A stretch of 35,521 bases of DNA, from positions 1 to 35,521 of IMG/VR virus record IMGVR_UViG_3300048433_000995; one strand, written 5' to 3'. This document shows, in pieces, positions 2,381-33,151 of the stretch. The position numbers were made by a program, and so were the translations under genes. Below the pieces are notes generated by a model that did no database searches, was not told the DNA's origin, and worked only from the letters and a program-made list of their open reading frames with translations. Positions within the stretch are counted from its first letter, which is position 1. Each line of letters starts with the position of its first letter. Source of the DNA: a virus.

Positions 2381-3850
2381 ATGGCAGGAAGTGTCCAAAC
2401 AACCCCCGGGTTTGATTTGCAGCCAAGTGCACAGCAAGTCCCACTCGCAACAAATTATATTACCAACTTTGATTTCTTGAATCAGTATCTACCTGATACT
2501 TATGAGAAAGAATTTGAGAGATATGGTAATCGTACAATCTCCTCATTCCTTAGAATGGTAGGAGCAGAAATGCCTTCTAACTCTGACCTTATCAAATGGG
2601 CTGAGCAAGGAAGACTTCACACTAAATATGTAAACTGTACTTCAGCAGCTACTTATACGCCACCAGCGGCAGTAGCTTATGTAGATACAGCTACAATCAC
2701 CATCAACGATACGTTAGTACCTAACCGTGCTACTACTATAGGAACAGCAGGTTCTATTGCTATCAGAGTAGGTCAAACTATTATGATTAGCTCTAAAACA
2801 ATTGCAGCTGGTGTAGCTACTACTAACAAAGCTATTGTAACAGATGTAGATACTGCGGCAGGAACTATTGATGTAGCGTTTTACGATGCACAAGGTTTTG
2901 CTAATGGCGATGCAACTAATGTTTTTGAAATATTTGTTTATGGTTCTGAGTTTAAAAAAGGACAAGCTGGAATGACAGGTTCTTTAGAAGCAGACGATGA
3001 GATTTTTGAAACATCTCCAATTATCCTTAAAGATAAGTATGCAGTATCAGGTTCTGATATGGCTCAAATCGGATGGGTAGAAGTAACTACTGAAAACGGT
3101 GCTACAGGATACCTTTGGTACTTAAAATCAGAGCACGAAACTCGTTTACGTTTTGATGATTACTTAGAGACCTCAATGATTGAAGCAGTTCCTGCTGAAG
3201 CAGGTTCAGGTGCAATTGCAGCAGGTGGTGCTGTAGGTAACAAAGGAACTGAAGGTATTTTTTACACAGTAGAGAATAGAGGAAATGTATGGTCAGGAGG
3301 AAACCCTGAATCATTATCAGATTTTGACGACATTATCAGACGATTAGATAAGCAAGGTTCTATTGAAGAGAATGTTATTTTCTTGAACAGAAATTTTGGT
3401 TTTGATATCGATGATATGTTAGCAGCTCAAAATTCTTACGGTGCAGGTGGTACGTCTTACGGACTATTTGACAACGATAAGGATATGGCTCTTAACTTAG
3501 GTTTCACAGGATTCCGTAGAGGTTATGATTTCTACAAGACTGATTGGAAATACCTAAACGACCCAACTATGCGTGGTGGTCTTACAGGGGGTGAAGTTGT
3601 AAACGGATTATTAGTACCTGCGGGTTCTACTACTGTTTACGACCAAGTTCTTGGAAAGAACGCTAAGCGACCTTTCTTACACGTTCGATACAGAGCTTCA
3701 GAAACTGAAGACAGACGTTACAAAACGTGGATTACAGGTTCAGCAGGTGGTGCAATGAACAGCGACCTTGATGCAATGGAAGTACACTTCCTTTCTGAGA
3801 GAGCTGTATGTACTATGGGTGCAAACAACTTCTTTATATTTAAAGACTAG
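2381..3850 (+). CDS. Major capsid protein
   Basis: At 489 residues this fits the crAss-like HK97-fold capsid subunit, which is about this long because of an inserted domain. An N-terminal arm is followed by the conserved-looking segment SNSDLIKWAEQGRLHTKY (residues 67-84). Residues about 85-200 are Thr/Ala/Val-rich and beta-predicted, and they look like an insertion domain. The region after 200 (DEIFETSPIILKDKY and onward) and the C-terminal stretch with repeated aromatic/Gly motifs would complete the fold. It follows the scaffold-like gene by 25 bases in an A-rich leader and is closed by a strong terminator 16 bases after the stop, as expected for a very highly expressed gene. Confidence 0.85.
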   Translation: MAGSVQTTPGFDLQPSAQQVPLATNYITNFDFLNQYLPDTYEKEFERYGNRTISSFLRMVGAEMPSNSDLIKWAEQGRLHTKYVNCTSAATYTPPAAVAYVDTATITINDTLVPNRATTIGTAGSIAIRVGQTIMISSKTIAAGVATTNKAIVTDVDTAAGTIDVAFYDAQGFANGDATNVFEIFVYGSEFKKGQAGMTGSLEADDEIFETSPIILKDKYAVSGSDMAQIGWVEVTTENGATGYLWYLKSEHETRLRFDDYLETSMIEAVPAEAGSGAIAAGGAVGNKGTEGIFYTVENRGNVWSGGNPESLSDFDDIIRRLDKQGSIEENVIFLNRNFGFDIDDMLAAQNSYGAGGTSYGLFDNDKDMALNLGFTGFRRGYDFYKTDWKYLNDPTMRGGLTGGEVVNGLLVPAGSTTVYDQVLGKNAKRPFLHVRYRASETEDRRYKTWITGSAGGAMNSDLDAMEVHFLSERAVCTMGANNFFIFKD

Positions 3851-23050: not shown

Positions 23051-23763
23051 AACTCCATCATACAGTTTATTGCTGTGTGTCCACCGAATACTACACCACA
23101 CCCTATCGCTTGTTTCTTAAAGTTCTTAGCGTATGCTGCTGCGTATGACTTGCCATCAACACCACATCCTACCTGCATTCCGAATATCTTGAAGTTCTTA
23201 CCTACATTCCATTCGGTATATGCTTGCGTATGGATATGACCTTGTACGGTTGACATCATATCATTCTTAGATTTAGTTCGTGCTGTTCCTCCCTCTCCGT
23301 GAACGTATTGTACACCATCGTAGACTACTTGCTCAACCCAATTCCAATTAGTTCCAAGAACCTCGTTGTAATCTTTAATCCAACGTGAAGGAATCTGAGA
23401 ATCAAATGCCTTACGCATTATTATCCTGTCGTGGTTTCCAATACATACATCTGCTTTTGGAAACTCATCTCGCCACTTGGCAATCTCTTCAATAGCATAG
23501 TCAAGCTCATCGCCACCACCCATACCATCCGGGTCGGTCGTATGGAAGGATGAGTAGTGGTTGTCGATGATGTCACCAATAAATATTACTTGATTGCAAT
23601 TATACTTGGCATAGGTGTCCTTACAGAACTCAAAGTACCCGTCAAGGGTAAATGGTGCGTGAAGGTCACCTATAACAAGTATACGCTTTTCGTTTTTGGT
23701 TAAGTTTAGGTAGGCATCTTTCTTGTTGCCTTTTAGTCTTGGTCTAAAATCACTATAGCTCAT
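23047..23763 (-). CDS. Calcineurin-like metallophosphoesterase
   Basis: The 238-residue protein shows the full motif series of two-metal phosphoesterases in order: GDLH (32-35), GDIID (63-67), GNHD (109-112), an HGEGG segment (155-159) and GHIH (175-178). These supply the Asp, His and Asn metal ligands. Such phage enzymes act as phosphatases or as nucleases of the Mre11/SbcD type; the substrate here cannot be read from sequence. No capping domain of SbcD type is present. It overlaps the gene upstream by 11 bases and is coupled by ATGA to the PD-(D/E)XK-like gene downstream, so a joint role in nucleic-acid processing is plausible. Confidence 0.85.
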   Translation of the reverse strand: MSYSDFRPRLKGNKKDAYLNLTKNEKRILVIGDLHAPFTLDGYFEFCKDTYAKYNCNQVIFIGDIIDNHYSSFHTTDPDGMGGGDELDYAIEEIAKWRDEFPKADVCIGNHDRIIMRKAFDSQIPSRWIKDYNEVLGTNWNWVEQVVYDGVQYVHGEGGTARTKSKNDMMSTVQGHIHTQAYTEWNVGKNFKIFGMQVGCGVDGKSYAAAYAKNFKKQAIGCGVVFGGHTAINCMMEL

Positions 23764-23941
23764 CGGTAATTGATAATTGAATTTCTCTTAACTCCTCGAT
23801 TAACTCGACAAGCACATCACTCAATTCATCAAAATCTCTGTCGACTAGAAGTTCATAGACGTCATCTACATAGTCGTGAATAACTCCCATCTTGTAGTTG
23901 ATGTGAGCTAATCTCTCCTTTTCGTATGCAGACAATTTCAT
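23753..23941 (-). CDS. Small acidic helical protein, unknown
   Basis: This 62-residue protein is rich in Asp, Glu and Leu and is probably entirely helical (for example DDVYELLVDRDFDELSDVLV, residues 25-44, then a Leu/Glu helix). No motif is recognised. It lies 34 bases downstream of the preceding gene and overlaps the phosphoesterase start by 11 bases, so it is almost certainly expressed. Small acidic phage proteins of this kind often act as inhibitors or adaptors, but nothing in the sequence shows that here. Confidence 0.6.
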   Translation of the reverse strand: MKLSAYEKERLAHINYKMGVIHDYVDDVYELLVDRDFDELSDVLVELIEELREIQLSITDEL

Positions 23942-23975: not shown

Positions 23976-24212
23976 TTATCCTAATTTTATATTATCTATA
24001 ACTTCATTCCAATTATTTACCATAGCATCGTGCATTTCTTTTAGGCTATCGTGCTTATAAAATGCTTCGGCTGCTTCATTAGCTTGCTCTTCGCAAAACT
24101 TATTAACTCTAATGAAACTACTTTTTGTTTTAGGTGGCATTGGTGCATCAATCTCATCTAATAATGCAGGCAGCATTAGTGTCATTAAATATATTTTTAA
24201 TTCGGGTGTCAT
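23976..24212 (-). CDS. Small protein, unknown, coupled to DnaA-like gene
   Basis: This 78-residue helical protein has a hydrophobic N-terminal stretch (LKIYLMTLMLPALLDEI, residues 5-21), too interrupted by charge to be a clear membrane segment. A charged part follows (NKFCEEQANEAAEAFYKHDS, residues 37-56). The start overlaps the stop of the DnaA-domain-IV-like gene by ATGA, so the two are probably made together and could interact. I do not recognise the family. Confidence 0.6.
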   Translation of the reverse strand: MTPELKIYLMTLMLPALLDEIDAPMPPKTKSSFIRVNKFCEEQANEAAEAFYKHDSLKEMHDAMVNNWNEVIDNIKLG

Positions 24213-24631
24213 AATGCAAATTGTCTTTTTCTAAGTAATTGTATTTCTTGTTTCAAGGAAACATTTTCTCTTTCTAAATTAGATACACATCTCACAAGCT
24301 CGCTATATGTTGCGTGTTCTATATCATTCGTATTCATATTCTTAATTATAAGTTCTTTAATAATAGTATATGTGCGATATAATTCTTTATCATAGATAAC
24401 TAAATCATCAAAGGTTCTTACGCTATGTATAACCGTTGAGTGGTCTTTATATAGTGTCCTGCCAATAGGTGCGTACCCATATCCTAAGTCTCTGAGTATT
24501 TTGAAATAAACCATTCTACCAAAAACATATTCTTGTTTTCGGCAATCATCTGTTATGTCTATTTTAAATGTGTTGTTAATTAATTTTATTAATTTTCTTT
24601 TTAATTGTGGGTCTATAATTGTTTTTCTCAT
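24209..24631 (-). CDS. Stand-alone DnaA domain IV-like DNA-binding protein
   Basis: The 140-residue protein carries the helix-turn-helix signature of the DnaA C-terminal domain. Residues 36-49 (VFGRMVYFKILRDL) correspond to the helix that opens domain IV, and YAPIGRTLYKDHSTVIHSVR (53-72) corresponds to the basic loop plus the DHTTVLHA-type recognition motif that reads DnaA boxes. There is no AAA+ ATPase domain. Instead, the last 30 residues (ELVRCVSNLERENVSLKQEI, then LLRKRQF) look like a short coiled coil, possibly for dimerization. It is the first gene after a terminator, so it starts its own transcription unit, although I see no clear promoter. It could be an origin-binding initiator, a competitor of host DnaA or a transcription regulator. 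Confidence 0.78.
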   Translation of the reverse strand: MRKTIIDPQLKRKLIKLINNTFKIDITDDCRKQEYVFGRMVYFKILRDLGYGYAPIGRTLYKDHSTVIHSVRTFDDLVIYDKELYRTYTIIKELIIKNMNTNDIEHATYSELVRCVSNLERENVSLKQEIQLLRKRQFAL

Positions 24632-24717
24632 ATGTTTTGGTAATTTTTTTATTGTTATTTAATTTAATTGATTTAATTTCGCACTATTCTTTGAATGGAT
24701 AGATTTTTTTCATTATC

Positions 24718-24750
24718 AAAAGCCCTCAATTGACCAAGAGGGCTTTTTTT
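24718..24750. terminator. Hairpin terminator closing the helicase operon
   Basis: A perfect 10-base-pair stem, AAAAGCCCTC (24718-24727) with GAGGGCTTTT (24738-24747), a 10-base loop, seven T on the plus strand and four T on the minus strand. The zinc-ribbon stop codon lies within its 3' flank (24749-24751). Both neighbouring genes are on the minus strand, so its main job is probably to end the primase-to-zinc-ribbon transcript. The remainder of the non-coding stretch (24632-24717) is AT-rich and shows no clear promoter. Confidence 0.85.
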
Positions 24751-25454: not shown

Positions 25455-26873
25455 CTACAAAGTTAGCAAATCTTTCTTAAAGTGTTTGGTGGTATAGTCT
25501 TTTTTATTAGATACAGCCTTATATATCTTATCTTCTATACCTTTCTCGGCAAATATCCAATACACATCACTCTCTAATCTTTCTTTAGTTGTCATCCTAT
25601 CCCTGCTCTGCCAATAGCTTGTTGCACTATAATCAATATTGTAGTATACCAATGCCTCGGCTTTACGAAGACTAATACCCTCTCTACCTGATTGAATCTG
25701 TAGGGCTATGGTTTTAGACGTTGTATTGAACTCATCCAGCTCTGTACATAGATTGTCTCCATAGACCTCTTTTAGGGCGTTATACTCCTCTTTAAACTTA
25801 TAGAAGATACCAACCTTACTATCGCCAAAGTTATCGTGTATAAACCTGGCTTTACTCAAATCAAGTATCTTTGAGTTACCTGATTCAAACTTAACCGTAC
25901 CTGAGTATATCTGATGCAACTTAGTCATTAGCTTTACACTAGTATCGCCAAGTATTACTTCATCCTTTCCTTCAACCACTAAATCCTTCTTCAGTTTCTT
26001 AGCTATGTTATATGTGATGTCATCCATCTTTACATACAGCTTATGTTCCCGGGTATCAACCTTAAAACCTGCATCCTTCTGAGAGTAACTAATCGTATAT
26101 GCTTTCATCATATCAATGATGCTCTGCTTACCATTTGAATAATCTCTGATACGAAGACCATTGATTTTCTTTTCAGTAACCGTTACATAATCATCACAGA
26201 ACCTATAGAAGTTCTTGTACTGCTTGAATGGATTATTTGGTATACCATATACCTGATGATACATCTGACTGAATGATTCAGGAGTTGGTGTGCCTGACAT
26301 AAGTATAACATAAGGATTATTCTTAGCTATCAACTCACGCACCTGCTTAGCACGTTTGCTTGGCTTAGGGAACGCACCCATACTGTGTGCCTCGTCACAT
26401 ACAATCAAGTCCCACATATCTTGTGGTAGCTTGTGGATGCTTTCGTAGTTCATAACCACTAGGTTATACTTAGGGTTGAGCATTGCGTAGTCAGACTCGA
26501 TAGTGCTAATTGCCTTCTTCTTAGTTAAGAAGAGTACATTCCCTGCACCAATCTCATCAGCAATACCAAGACTTGTTAAGGTCTTGCCTGTGCGAACTTC
26601 CATAGCTAAATACAAAAAACGTTTAGCCTTAAGAACCCCCACCCCCTTAGAGATGATAGTTCTCTGATAGTCTCTGAACTTAAAACTTGATTTAGTCATA
26701 TCCTTGTTTAACTTTATTTCAATTAACTTAAACAAAGGTCTCTGTGAATGTACAATCTTATGTCTATTCATTAGTCTAGCAAACAAAGAATCCTTATCCT
26801 CCGAATCTCCGTAGACTTCAGAGGATAAGATTCTTTTACCTTTTTGTGCTGTTACTTGATATAATCCTTTCAT
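25455..26873 (-). CDS. SNF2-type SF2 DNA helicase/translocase
   Basis: The 472-residue protein has both RecA-like lobes of an SF2 ATPase. After a short N-terminal region come FRDYQ (66-70, Q-motif-like), the Walker A variant MEVRTGKT (91-98), a VVMNYES strand, the Walker B VCDEAH (158-163), SGTPT (193-197, motif III) and a C-terminal lobe ending in QSRDR (422-426, motif VI with the arginine finger). The spacing and the YWQSRDR context are those of compact phage SNF2-like helicases, also seen in crAss-like phages. It is coupled by ATGA to the primase-helicase gene, so it probably acts in replication, fork remodelling or recombination. Confidence 0.9.
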   Translation of the reverse strand: MKGLYQVTAQKGKRILSSEVYGDSEDKDSLFARLMNRHKIVHSQRPLFKLIEIKLNKDMTKSSFKFRDYQRTIISKGVGVLKAKRFLYLAMEVRTGKTLTSLGIADEIGAGNVLFLTKKKAISTIESDYAMLNPKYNLVVMNYESIHKLPQDMWDLIVCDEAHSMGAFPKPSKRAKQVRELIAKNNPYVILMSGTPTPESFSQMYHQVYGIPNNPFKQYKNFYRFCDDYVTVTEKKINGLRIRDYSNGKQSIIDMMKAYTISYSQKDAGFKVDTREHKLYVKMDDITYNIAKKLKKDLVVEGKDEVILGDTSVKLMTKLHQIYSGTVKFESGNSKILDLSKARFIHDNFGDSKVGIFYKFKEEYNALKEVYGDNLCTELDEFNTTSKTIALQIQSGREGISLRKAEALVYYNIDYSATSYWQSRDRMTTKERLESDVYWIFAEKGIEDKIYKAVSNKKDYTTKHFKKDLLTL

Positions 26874-29254
26874 AACTTAATCATATACCATTTACCCATC
26901 ACATCTTTTCCTTCCTGCACATCTTTCCCCGTTAGGTATTTAGCATATGCTTTTACATATTTATTAAACTTAACACGACTTAACTTTATACTACCTGTCT
27001 TTCCGTAGTCAGGATAGTCATCACAAAAATCAATATATAGTTTATTTAGGTGTATGGTTTCTTCTACAGGTAGTAATGGATTCTTCTCTCCTGTTTTTAT
27101 ACCACACCACTCTACAAAGTCTTCTGATGTTTCTAAAACAAATGATTTGTATTTACCATTCACAAGTTCACTCTCAATAAGACCTGTTCTCATATAACTA
27201 CTCAGGCAGTTAACCATATAGCTATCAAACAAACACCACTCATCTGAATCCCAATCGTTAAACAGATGTTTCTTAAACTCATCAAATGGTGTGTACTGCT
27301 TACTATAATGTGCGTGTAATTCAATCTCAAACTTACGTCTTGCAAATGAATTACCTGTACCTCGTATTGCGTAGTTAGTTGTGATTGCTACCTTCGGTGA
27401 ACGAGTATATGGTATCTTGATTGCATCCTTGTTTTTCTTCTCTAATGTAAGACCCTCCGTAATAACACTAAACAATCTCTCAAAGTCAAAGTTACGCTTA
27501 ACATCATCAAAGCATAATAGTTGTGTGTCAACCGATACGGTCTGATATGGGAATGATTTCTCAAAGTTAAATGCCTTACCATCAATCACTACTAGCTTCT
27601 TCATATGAGATAGTGCATTCATAAATATTCCCTTACCCGTTCCACCTTCAGGATTCTCACTAGCAACCTCATCATTCAATATGATTGCCGGGCAGGATGA
27701 TAAGTTCTTAAATCCGTGTAGCATAAAACCAATTGTTGATTCCATTGTATCAATTCTATCTTGGCTACCACCACATATCCTAGATATAAATGTTTTGTAA
27801 TCGCAATTATCATTACGACACATTCTAAATGTTCTATCTATAACGTGGTCTTTCCAAACATACCCATCTAAATCAACATATTGAATTGTCTCAATATCGT
27901 TTGTTGTAACCTTTACTGCACAATTATTATAATACAGAAATGATGTATCTTTTGTATCTCTAACAAAGTGAATATCAATAGTAGATAGTAATGTAAGGAA
28001 ATCTTCCTTAAATAAACTTGTCCTATCTGCGTAGTGATTATAAACCGATAAGTCATCAAGGTCTAAAAGATGATTAAGTATAAAGTCTTTTATTTCTTTA
28101 TCCGATGTGTGGTCTATCAGGTTTTCAATAACTCTAACAAATACAAAGTTAGCTGTACCTTCAGGCGAATACTTATAGAATCCATTATCCTCAAGAAACT
28201 GCTTAAATAATACAGGTATATTTCTAATTACACCCTTCTCACTCTTTGACCAAAACTTAACATTTGCACCCTCATCATCTACACGCTTAATAACTGATTC
28301 TACATCACATTCAGGATATGATTTATTATTACTATCCAACTCCTCAATAATCTCTTTTTTGGTTGCTCCATTCCTAACCTTTAATCTAACTATATTAACA
28401 GCCGACTCATCCTCATAGAATTTTGTTCTAAACTTAGCAGTATGGTTATATGCATTCTCAATTGTAGCTTGTATCTCTTTTAAATTAAAGTCTTCCTGCT
28501 CATATTGATTCAAAACATATGCTGCTAATGACTTATTAATACCATACTCATTAAAAGCCATTGCTAGTGTGTATGCGTTTTGGTTTCGCATACCCTCGTG
28601 CATTGGAAACTTTTTCTCCCACCACTTAACAAGTATCTCTACAATCTTATTCTCATCTGTAATTGGTAGTGTTGCTATGTTAGATAACACATCTACCTCT
28701 ACATATTCCTTCTCCTTTATTTTATCATACACTTCAGAGTTCTCGTTGATATGAATTAGATTATCCCAAGACTCATAACATACTCTACTTATATTCTTTG
28801 ATGTCTTATCAAAATATGGTGAATCAAAATACTCCTCAAGCGAATTAAAATAGTTAACGTGTTTGTCTATATCAGCAGGTATCTTAATCAATACCTTTAG
28901 ACCATTACCTGATGGAGATATAAATACCGAATAGACATACTTGTCTTTAGCTATCTTATCTTTATGCTCCTTCATTATGCTTTTCTTCTCATAATCATCG
29001 AAGTCTAAACATATAATACCACTATGCTCTAGTATTGACTTATCGTTTCTTTTATTGAATGTTCCACTAAAACATATAGCAGGTAGCTGTTGCTTTAGTT
29101 CTGCTCTTTTATTCTTATCCTTCTCAGACCTTATAGACTTTACGAGTTCCTTACTCTTACCATCCTTGATTCTATCAAGTATAACACCAATAGGAAGATG
29201 AAATGGTGCTTGGGTTTCTTTTATATTTTTAAAGATTGTGACGTTGTTTGACAT
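26870..29254 (-). CDS. Primase-SF3 helicase fusion (BT4734/VirE-N-like plus D5-like helicase)
   Basis: This 794-residue replication protein has an N-terminal domain like the BT4734/VirE N-terminal primase-polymerase-related fold: ICLDFDDYE (81-89), FISPSGNGLKVLIKI (111-125), SRVCYESWD (156-164). A helical linker of PriCT type follows (about 218-285). The C-terminal part is an SF3 helicase with Walker A PEGGTGKG (535-542), Walker B LLCFDD (579-584), motif C KVAITTNY (621-628) and the arginine-finger region ARRKFE (638-643). It should prime and unwind the phage origin. No polymerase gene accompanies it here. A 202-base non-coding stretch with repeats lies just upstream of its start. Confidence 0.88.
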   Translation of the reverse strand: MSNNVTIFKNIKETQAPFHLPIGVILDRIKDGKSKELVKSIRSEKDKNKRAELKQQLPAICFSGTFNKRNDKSILEHSGIICLDFDDYEKKSIMKEHKDKIAKDKYVYSVFISPSGNGLKVLIKIPADIDKHVNYFNSLEEYFDSPYFDKTSKNISRVCYESWDNLIHINENSEVYDKIKEKEYVEVDVLSNIATLPITDENKIVEILVKWWEKKFPMHEGMRNQNAYTLAMAFNEYGINKSLAAYVLNQYEQEDFNLKEIQATIENAYNHTAKFRTKFYEDESAVNIVRLKVRNGATKKEIIEELDSNNKSYPECDVESVIKRVDDEGANVKFWSKSEKGVIRNIPVLFKQFLEDNGFYKYSPEGTANFVFVRVIENLIDHTSDKEIKDFILNHLLDLDDLSVYNHYADRTSLFKEDFLTLLSTIDIHFVRDTKDTSFLYYNNCAVKVTTNDIETIQYVDLDGYVWKDHVIDRTFRMCRNDNCDYKTFISRICGGSQDRIDTMESTIGFMLHGFKNLSSCPAIILNDEVASENPEGGTGKGIFMNALSHMKKLVVIDGKAFNFEKSFPYQTVSVDTQLLCFDDVKRNFDFERLFSVITEGLTLEKKNKDAIKIPYTRSPKVAITTNYAIRGTGNSFARRKFEIELHAHYSKQYTPFDEFKKHLFNDWDSDEWCLFDSYMVNCLSSYMRTGLIESELVNGKYKSFVLETSEDFVEWCGIKTGEKNPLLPVEETIHLNKLYIDFCDDYPDYGKTGSIKLSRVKFNKYVKAYAKYLTGKDVQEGKDVMGKWYMIKL

Positions 29255-29404
29255 AAATTGATTGTTTTCTGACGTTTAAATTGTTGATTATCAATGACTC
29301 TGACCTGTTGACCACTTTTACTAAGTAAATTTAGAATAAAAAATATTATATATATATAGTAGTAGTAGTAGTATAGGGATTTTTAAGTTGGTCAGCATAA
29401 AGAG
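29255..29404. other. Repeat-bearing intergenic region, candidate replication origin
   Basis: This non-coding stretch between the primase-helicase start and the SSB-like terminator holds (TA)n at 29347-29356 and five perfect TAG triplets at 29357-29371, then TATAGGG. TGACC occurs twice in direct order (29301-29305, 29309-29313) and once inverted (29390-29394). No TAnnTTTG box is found for the downstream primase gene. The order TGACC site, GGG, TAG triplets, TA tract resembles the box, GC cluster, DnaA-trio and unwinding-region layout of bacterial oriC. An origin role is inference. Confidence 0.45.
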
Positions 29405-29433
29405 CAAATAAAAGGGAGTCGTATAACTCCCTT
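29405..29433 (-). terminator. Intrinsic terminator after the SSB-like gene
   Basis: On the minus strand, AAGGGAGT (29433-29426) pairs with ACTCCCTT (29419-29412), an 8-base-pair stem with a 6-base loop followed by TTATTTG. It lies 23 bases after the SSB-like stop codon. Confidence 0.85.
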
Positions 29434-29456
29434 ATTATCTGCAACTTAGACTCTAA

Positions 29457-31115: not shown

Positions 31116-31497
31116 TTAACTTATTATTTAATTGTGTGTAACTTGACATCAAGGAATCCCTTGTTGCCTTTAATTGTTTAATTGTTTTTTCACTACCTTT
31201 ACCATTGACTTCATCTCGAATACTCTTCTCTACTTTGTCTAGCTTTGAACGATAGTTCGCCAAAGTTACTACATATACCCCATATCTCCAACCCTTTTCT
31301 TTAAAGGTATCAGACTCATAGTCTGTGAGTCTTTTGTAATATCTCTTACTTGTGTTTAGTAAATCAATCTCGTGTGTGTAGTCATCCTTAAGAATCTTTA
31401 CATCTAAAAGCATTACACACTGGTATCCGTTTTCAATCCTTTTTACTGATTTGTTGTCAGTAAATGCTTGGTCGAATATCTCTTCTAAACTGAACAT
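31096..31497 (-). CDS. Unknown protein ahead of annealing protein
   Basis: This 133-residue protein has a mixed alpha/beta N-terminal 80 residues and a C-terminal helical part (95-133), Lys/Ser/Asn-rich and probably coiled coil. There are no recognisable catalytic or metal motifs. It overlaps the DnaA-domain-IV-like gene by 13 bases and the annealing gene by 20 bases, so it belongs to the recombination operon. It might be a partner or loader for the annealing protein, but this is only positional inference. Confidence 0.6.
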   Translation of the reverse strand: MFSLEEIFDQAFTDNKSVKRIENGYQCVMLLDVKILKDDYTHEIDLLNTSKRYYKRLTDYESDTFKEKGWRYGVYVVTLANYRSKLDKVEKSIRDEVNGKGSEKTIKQLKATRDSLMSSYTQLNNKLNEQTEL

Positions 31498-31772
31498 ATT
31501 TTTTCTTTGAAGTTTTTGTAATCCTTGTCTTTAGTCTCGGCAATCCTATCAATACCTTGTCTTACTGATGGATACTGAATGTGATATCCATTCTCTCCCA
31601 TCATTCTAATTATACTAGCTATTGAAAAATCGTTCTTGTGACAGGTCCAATAAAGCATCTGCCTTGCATCTACAATCTCACGTTCTTTTATCTTTGTAAA
31701 GAACACATCTTTTGATATACCAAACTCTCTTAGTATGACCTCTACGTAAAAATCAAATCTCTTTTTCTTCAT
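31485..31772 (-). CDS. Second DnaA domain IV-like helix-turn-helix protein
   Basis: The 95-residue protein has a C-terminal two-thirds patterned like DnaA domain IV. REIVDARQMLYW (31-42) corresponds to the RxxvxARQiamyL helix that opens domain IV, FSIASIIRMMGENGYHIQ (49-66) to the next helix and basic turn, and YPSVRQGIDRI (67-77) to the TTVLHGVRRI recognition helix. The Thr/Ser of the DnaA signature is only partly kept (PS instead of TT), so DNA specificity may differ from that of classic DnaA boxes. It lies in the annealase/exonuclease operon, about 7 kb from the other DnaA-like gene. Confidence 0.68.
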   Translation of the reverse strand: MKKKRFDFYVEVILREFGISKDVFFTKIKEREIVDARQMLYWTCHKNDFSIASIIRMMGENGYHIQYPSVRQGIDRIAETKDKDYKNFKEKICSV

Positions 31773-32293: not shown

Positions 32294-33151
32294 TTAAAAT
32301 GGATGGGTAGTTTTTACTAACTCTATAGCAGGCAAATCACCATTAATATTAAATATAAGTCTATGTACAGGCGGGTTGCCATTTATATAGTTGTTCCAAG
32401 CCTTTATTATTAATCCTTTTAACCAATACTTGTTTAGATGCGTCTTTGAATTTTTAGCCTTAACCATACATTTGTAAACATAAGACGCAGAACTACCTCC
32501 CGCATATTCTGCACCGCAAAGCTCTTTTAGGAATCCTCTTATATATTCATTTTCTAAATCATATCCAACTAGCATATAAGCGACGAAAGCTAAATCAGCA
32601 ACAGATATCACACTATTTGGAGACTTGCTAGTAATTTGAGATGCCATCTTTATAACTTTATTTAAAAAATTATTGTTCTCTATTACGTAATCCAATCCTG
32701 CCGAATTTGAAATATAAGAATTACCGCTTGCGAATAATACACGTTTCGTTACACTACCTTTTCCTTTTCTTTTGTGCGAAGATGATAATATCAACTTAGC
32801 TAACTTAGATTTCTGATTGGGATAAGAGTATCCATTTAAAGAAATAATATCTTGCAGTGACCTATTCTTACCTGTGTCTATCGTGTCCATAGCATTGCTG
32901 TCCACTTCGGTAATTAATGGTACTCTGTAAGAATGTCTTGCTTTAATTACAGCTAGTAACCTATGCTGACCATCTTTAATTACATTGTCATCACCTATGA
33001 TTATGGCTTCACCATTTTCTTTCCATAATCCTGAATTCATTTGATTTACATAAAAAGCCACTTGCTTTTCACTTGGTTTTCTGTTGTGCTTGTTCTTCTT
33101 AAGTAACTCACCTGCCACTTCTGGCGTTAATTTAATAATACTTGCGTTCAT
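32294..33151 (-). CDS. ParB-like DGQHR-domain protein
   Basis: The 285-residue protein is the first gene after the strongest promoter in the window. Residues 6-98 form a ParB/sulfiredoxin-like domain: NRKPSEKQVAFYVNQMNSGL (23-42), GEAIIIGDDNVIKDGQHRLL (47-66) and IDTGKNRSLQDI (91-102). DGQHR corresponds to the nucleotide-binding motif of ParB-fold CTPases/nucleases. The remaining 180 residues are helical with a basic stretch (HKRKGKGSVTKRV), perhaps for DNA binding. As the first early gene it may regulate transcription, take part in DNA partition or modification, or act as a nuclease. I cannot choose among these. Confidence 0.72.
   Translation of the reverse strand: MNASIIKLTPEVAGELLKKNKHNRKPSEKQVAFYVNQMNSGLWKENGEAIIIGDDNVIKDGQHRLLAVIKARHSYRVPLITEVDSNAMDTIDTGKNRSLQDIISLNGYSYPNQKSKLAKLILSSSHKRKGKGSVTKRVLFASGNSYISNSAGLDYVIENNNFLNKVIKMASQITSKSPNSVISVADLAFVAYMLVGYDLENEYIRGFLKELCGAEYAGGSSASYVYKCMVKAKNSKTHLNKYWLKGLIIKAWNNYINGNPPVHRLIFNINGDLPAIELVKTTHPF

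Follow-up and report, generated by a model that had tools for sequence, protein, structure and literature searches.

Stand-alone DnaA domain IV proteins flanking the replication genes of a phage family

DnaA domain IV (PF08299; PDB entries 1j1v and 3pvp) has, to our knowledge, rarely been considered outside DnaA. Phage proteins of the kind described here are already known from annotation, since relatives of the protein termed A below carry a DnaA helix-turn-helix annotation in Flavobacterium phage tooticki6-1 (gp026) and Olleya phage Harreka_1 (gp24); a third relative, gp4 of Cellulophaga phage Nekkels_1, is annotated as hypothetical. All three are domain-IV-only proteins, 31 to 36% identical to A by tblastn, from phages whose gene orders differ from that of the phage studied here. 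Podoviridae sp. ctfjg026 (MW202828) carries both A and the second such protein, B, under the annotations 'dnaA' and 'chromosomal replication initiation protein', and in PMC4615864 a 'replication initiation protein DnaA' appears for Polaribacter phages as a list entry. A literature search yielded no study of what such phage domain-IV-only proteins do. With respect to origin recognition, the closest described systems are SaPI Rep and SCCmec Cch2, in which, according to PMC7581432, iterons adjoin the helicase gene and are bound by the C-terminal domains of these proteins.

The window analyzed here is a whole stretch of viral DNA of 35,521 nucleotides, the relevant features of which are listed in Table 1. 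A 140-residue open reading frame with an ATG start encodes protein A; this frame, proposed in a sequence-only reading, is real and lies on the minus strand.

Table 1. Positions of the features discussed, numbered along the window
Feature	Position	Strand	Remarks
62-aa acidic helical protein	23753..23941	-	constant neighbor of A
78-aa ORF	23976..24212	-	proposed partner; overlaps A by 4 bp; rarely conserved
Protein A	24209..24631	-	DnaA domain IV at residues ~8-100, then a leucine-zipper helix at the C terminus (109-139); AAA+ domain absent
Primase-helicase	26870..29254	-	BT4734-like_N, DUF5906; residue 736, which covaries with the origin repeats, lies in the C-terminal region
Origin-like noncoding region	29255..29456	-	parts in the rows below; repeats extend to 29239, inside the primase start
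Extra repeat copy	29239-29243	-	within the primase start
Repeats	29270-29274, 29301-29305, 29309-29313	-	
IHF-like site AATCAACAATTTA	29277..29289	-	perfect match to WATCAANNNNTTR
AT-rich TAC-repeat block	29335-29373	-	
Inverted repeat copy	29390-29394	-	
Terminator hairpin	29414-29431	-	
Protein B	31485..31772	-	shorter DnaA-domain-IV-only protein, 95 aa; conserved in the family

The same reading had described A as a DnaA domain IV without its ATPase, and profile searches and structural modeling agreed. Pfam Bac_DnaA_C (PF08299) matched A with an E value of 2.1e-7 (31.3 bits, cut-off of 31.5), and in a six-frame search the protein scored 32 bits, above the cut-off. As a single-sequence query, A matched no DnaA chain in the PDB, while a profile of 66 members matched 1j1v (E. 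coli DnaA domain IV; E = 1.6e-14), 8btg (8.4e-14) and 1l8q (2.3e-12). Bac_DnaA_C was matched individually by 59 of these 66 aligned members, a biased sample because some of the loci had been retrieved by the recognition-helix motif. An AlphaFold2 model of the monomer (pLDDT of 93.5) contained helices at residues 8-22, 33-48, 53-59, 64-80, 82-106 and 109-139. VIA-align placed this model on 3pvp_A (M. tuberculosis DnaA-DBD; Z of 14.5, rmsd of 1.5, 92 residues) and on 1j1v_A (Z of 13.9, rmsd of 1.5, 89 residues), with the top non-DnaA row reaching a Z of only 6.8; Foldseek gave modest E values (5e-3) at a probability of 1.00. The domain had been located at residues 36 to 75, where it is indeed present, but its span is considerably wider (Table 1). 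No AAA+ match was present among the Pfam hits of A, and a protein of only 140 residues and six helices leaves no room for such a domain. Profile and model thus identify A as DnaA domain IV alone, with the same fold and helix order. It differs from full-length DnaA in having neither domains I to III nor the AAA+ ATPase and in the leucine zipper that follows domain IV.

R407 and T436, which we take to be further DNA contacts of DnaA, are both kept in A. According to PMC5043019, E. coli DnaA makes base-specific contacts through residues 399, 423, 432-435 and 438-439, and relative to this list A keeps the equivalents of R399, D433, H434 and H439 and carries the substitutions P423 to A, R432 to K, T435 to S and L438 to I, positions 399, 432-435 and 438-439 thereby reading R, K, D, H, S, I and H. 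Among 53 nonredundant A proteins, the R399 equivalent was R in 41, R407 was kept in 49 and H434 in 48, and the D433 position was occupied by D in 24 and by N in 17. A thus retains most of the equipment for reading a DnaA-box-like site.

Heptad leucines with an interposed asparagine are the classic leucine zipper pattern. The tail of A has leucines at residues 112, 119, 126, 133 and 140, with Asn123 between them, and four such leucines arose in only 64 of 20,000 shuffles of this tail. The coiled coil suggested earlier to follow domain IV is, therefore, real in this protein and would allow a dimer. A simple heptad score was unusual in just 5 of the 53 family members, the window protein included, indicating that the zipper is particular to a few members rather than family-wide.

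Protein A evolves fast and, on sequence comparison, has evidently been exchanged between phages. Mean pairwise identity in 34 genomes was 26% for A, 47% for B and 72% for the primase. The window phage and L089 have primases that are 92% identical and A proteins that are 27% identical; for L121, the corresponding values are 62% and 58%. The intact recognition signature was failed by A in 19 of 67 genomes, which is hard to reconcile with one strict target. Such losses, together with the loci from which A is missing (see below), would fit the decaying remnant of a captured DnaA, one that has no specific DNA target and is kept for a protein contact; we consider this very improbable given the confident fold and the retention of the H434 and R407 equivalents in 48 and 49 of the 53 proteins.

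The six-frame search also detected a second Bac_DnaA_C match at 31596-31742, inside the open reading frame of protein B, which the first reading had missed. The window B matched Bac_DnaA_C with an E value of 9.7e-6, and its model (pLDDT of 93) aligned with 1j1v (Z of 13.8, rmsd of 1.6, 88 residues); all 36 aligned B members also matched Bac_DnaA_C. The Asp433 column is missing from B proteins; of 40 such proteins, 36 have Lys at position 399 and 37 retain H434. The recognition helix of the window B is altered, with QYPSV replacing xHSSI and the loss of the D-H signature, histidine included. B is a more conserved sibling of A with a different recognition helix.

The phage family was taken as the best 80 of 593 confirmed primase-helicase relatives in viral contigs (identity of at least 61%). 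Scored with profiles built partly from the same loci, A lay downstream of the primase in 54 of the 56 loci of this set having at least 5 kb there (not found in L131 and L158), and B lay upstream in 53 of the 56 having at least 4 kb there (not found in L124, L125 and L126); both were present in 36 of 40 loci. In the window, B sits just ahead of ERF-like, exonuclease-like and SSB-like genes. The 78-residue product of the gene overlapping A had been proposed as its first candidate partner. This gene was present in just 4 of 61 loci holding A plus at least 900 bp beyond, as against 61 of 61 for the 62-residue gene, ruling out the former as a general partner of A; the 62-residue gene was also present in L131 and L158. 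PADLOC defense models yielded no match for A, B or the 78-residue protein and a lone weak hit for the 62-residue protein (DRT model, 15.3 bits), which was disregarded. Megablast of positions 15000-35521 against a phage collection detected no close DNA relatives, and narrow pattern scans of bacterial genomes detected no relatives of A. A terminator-like hairpin lies at 24700-24750, between a 53-residue open reading frame and A, and hence a separate promoter may serve A in the window phage. A 285-residue protein (32294-33151, minus strand) contains a DGQHR motif, presumably that of ParB-like or DGQHR-type proteins.

The segment at 29255-29404, singled out for DNA binding tests in the first reading, does look like the phage origin, with conserved iterons, an IHF-like site and an AT-rich block. 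A similar noncoding stretch, in which a terminator hairpin is accompanied by an AT-rich block, by repeats and by a central element, was found in most of 76 regions upstream of the primase-helicase. The repeats, about five per region, have the consensus AAATCGACATAA; those of the window, like those of its close relatives, read CGTCA or GGTCA instead. Tandem repeat pairs numbered 83 in the origin-like stretches (3.46 per kb) and 6 elsewhere (0.0052 per kb). A conserved, palindrome-like element is situated among the repeats. Against WATCAANNNNTTR, the IHF consensus, the central elements of 50 representatives were perfect in 20 cases and had one mismatch in 24 and two in 6, compared with 23 perfect matches among 1,000 shuffled elements. 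On the minus strand at 29335-29373, (TAC)n stands beside TATATA in the presumed melting region, an arrangement seen in several relatives but not all; the other strand of this block reads TAGTAGTAG, which is reminiscent of DnaA-trio repeats.

Canonical DnaA boxes were absent from the origin-like region of the window, and no cluster of them marks an origin there. The window as a whole contained 1 box where 5.2 were expected, the sole TTWTNCACA being at position 3260, within a plus-strand gene distant from the replication genes. Across the family, 69 were observed as against 131 expected under an order-3 model, and 18 of 600 permuted motifs were as low or lower. Being absent from that region and scarce in window and family, canonical boxes were ruled out as the phage origin signal. 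The scarcity was equal in genomes in which A has lost its signature (ratios of 0.59, 0.43 and 0.50). It is thus independent of the signature of A and offers no evidence that A acts on boxes; self-avoidance driven by A was ruled out on the same ground.

The repeat carries G or A at base 6, and covariation with this base was examined in 42 genomes, the window having a different repeat type and standing outside this test. Among 514 columns, that of primase-helicase residue 736 explained the base best (p = 4.9e-12), followed by 735. None of the B columns reached 1e-3, and the top A columns, a tail position and residue 42, reached approximately 1e-5. In matched pairs, residue 736 differed in 14 of 14 pairs with contrasting repeat types, compared with 4 of 32 same-type pairs and 6 of 31 distance-matched control pairs, and it ranked first of 792 columns under both control sets. 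Lys736 was restricted to the G-type member in 13 of the 14 contrast pairs; overall, Lys accompanied G, and Met, Thr, His, Leu or Gln accompanied A. Between L103 and L130, whose primases are 89% identical, Lys changes to Met together with a change from TCGACA to TCAACA. Residue 736 is, on this covariation, likely to be a specificity switch for base 6 of the iteron. With distance-matched controls, the contact columns of A and B gave no repeat-tracking signal in the 10 contrast pairs available, leaving either protein unsupported as the iteron reader. Covariation and motif together point to the C-terminal domain of the primase-helicase as the best candidate for reading the repeats, probably with the help of an IHF-like protein. 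This arrangement would resemble that of SaPI Rep and Cch2 as given in PMC7581432, with the differences that the phage repeats are located upstream of the helicase gene, that C-terminal reading is inferred here from covariation and that sequence searches with this region matched no known fold.

These results weaken the earlier proposal that A marks the phage origin for the primase-helicase, as the repeats track residue 736 rather than any contact column in A or B and as canonical boxes are absent from that region. Either protein might still place the primase-helicase via an element other than the iterons, a role to which their near-constant presence in the replication block of the loci counted above and the palindrome-like element would lend themselves. 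We regard this as unlikely: apart from the tracking of residue 736, the central element conforms to an IHF site, and that site is intact in the window despite the altered recognition helix of B. In a covariation test of the central element, whose signal came mainly from a single deep split between clades, no column of A or B stood out.

Since A does not appear to read the origin repeats, it is most likely an accessory aimed outside the phage origin. Our tentative preference, held at somewhat less than even confidence, is that A is a sequence-specific DNA binder directed away from that origin, plausibly at host DnaA boxes. As a stand-alone domain IV, A would bind a DnaA-box-like sequence, in the window phage probably as a zipper-mediated dimer, and would be unable to melt DNA or load a helicase; the origin repeats would be left to the C-terminal domain of the primase-helicase and an IHF-like protein. 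A would then be an exchangeable accessory on boxes elsewhere, most plausibly those of the host, in oriC or in promoters under DnaA control, and would there be a competitor of the host's own DnaA.

DnaA itself is also a transcription regulator. A and B could accordingly be phage transcription regulators that bind diverged box-like operators at phage promoters, an explanation that is rather doubtful in itself and yet fits nearly as well as an outside target for A. Domain IV is a sequence-specific helix-turn-helix fold, and B, located upstream of the primase in 53 of the 56 scored loci of the best-80 set, occupies an early-gene position. However, a search for DnaA-box-like motifs upstream of the two genes revealed no enrichment: no exact site upstream of A in 41 genomes (16 sites with at most one mismatch, compared with 29.5 in shuffles) and one upstream of B in 40 genomes (22, compared with 32.4). 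No target site for A or B was found in the phage sequences analyzed.

On a bolder reading, two ATPase-less box readers would flank the replication genes, and at least one would act as a dominant-negative DnaA on the boxes of host oriC, stopping host initiation, while the phage, relying on its primase-helicase to read its origin repeats, would be immune. We put this forward as a conjecture that is, on balance, unlikely. The origin analysis provides a testable one-residue specificity rule for a phage initiator helicase, in which Lys736 goes with G and Met or other residues go with A. A family of phages in which two free-standing domain IV proteins are almost always retained, and in which origin reading seems to fall to the primase-helicase, would permit a direct test of whether phages block host initiation with a truncated DnaA.
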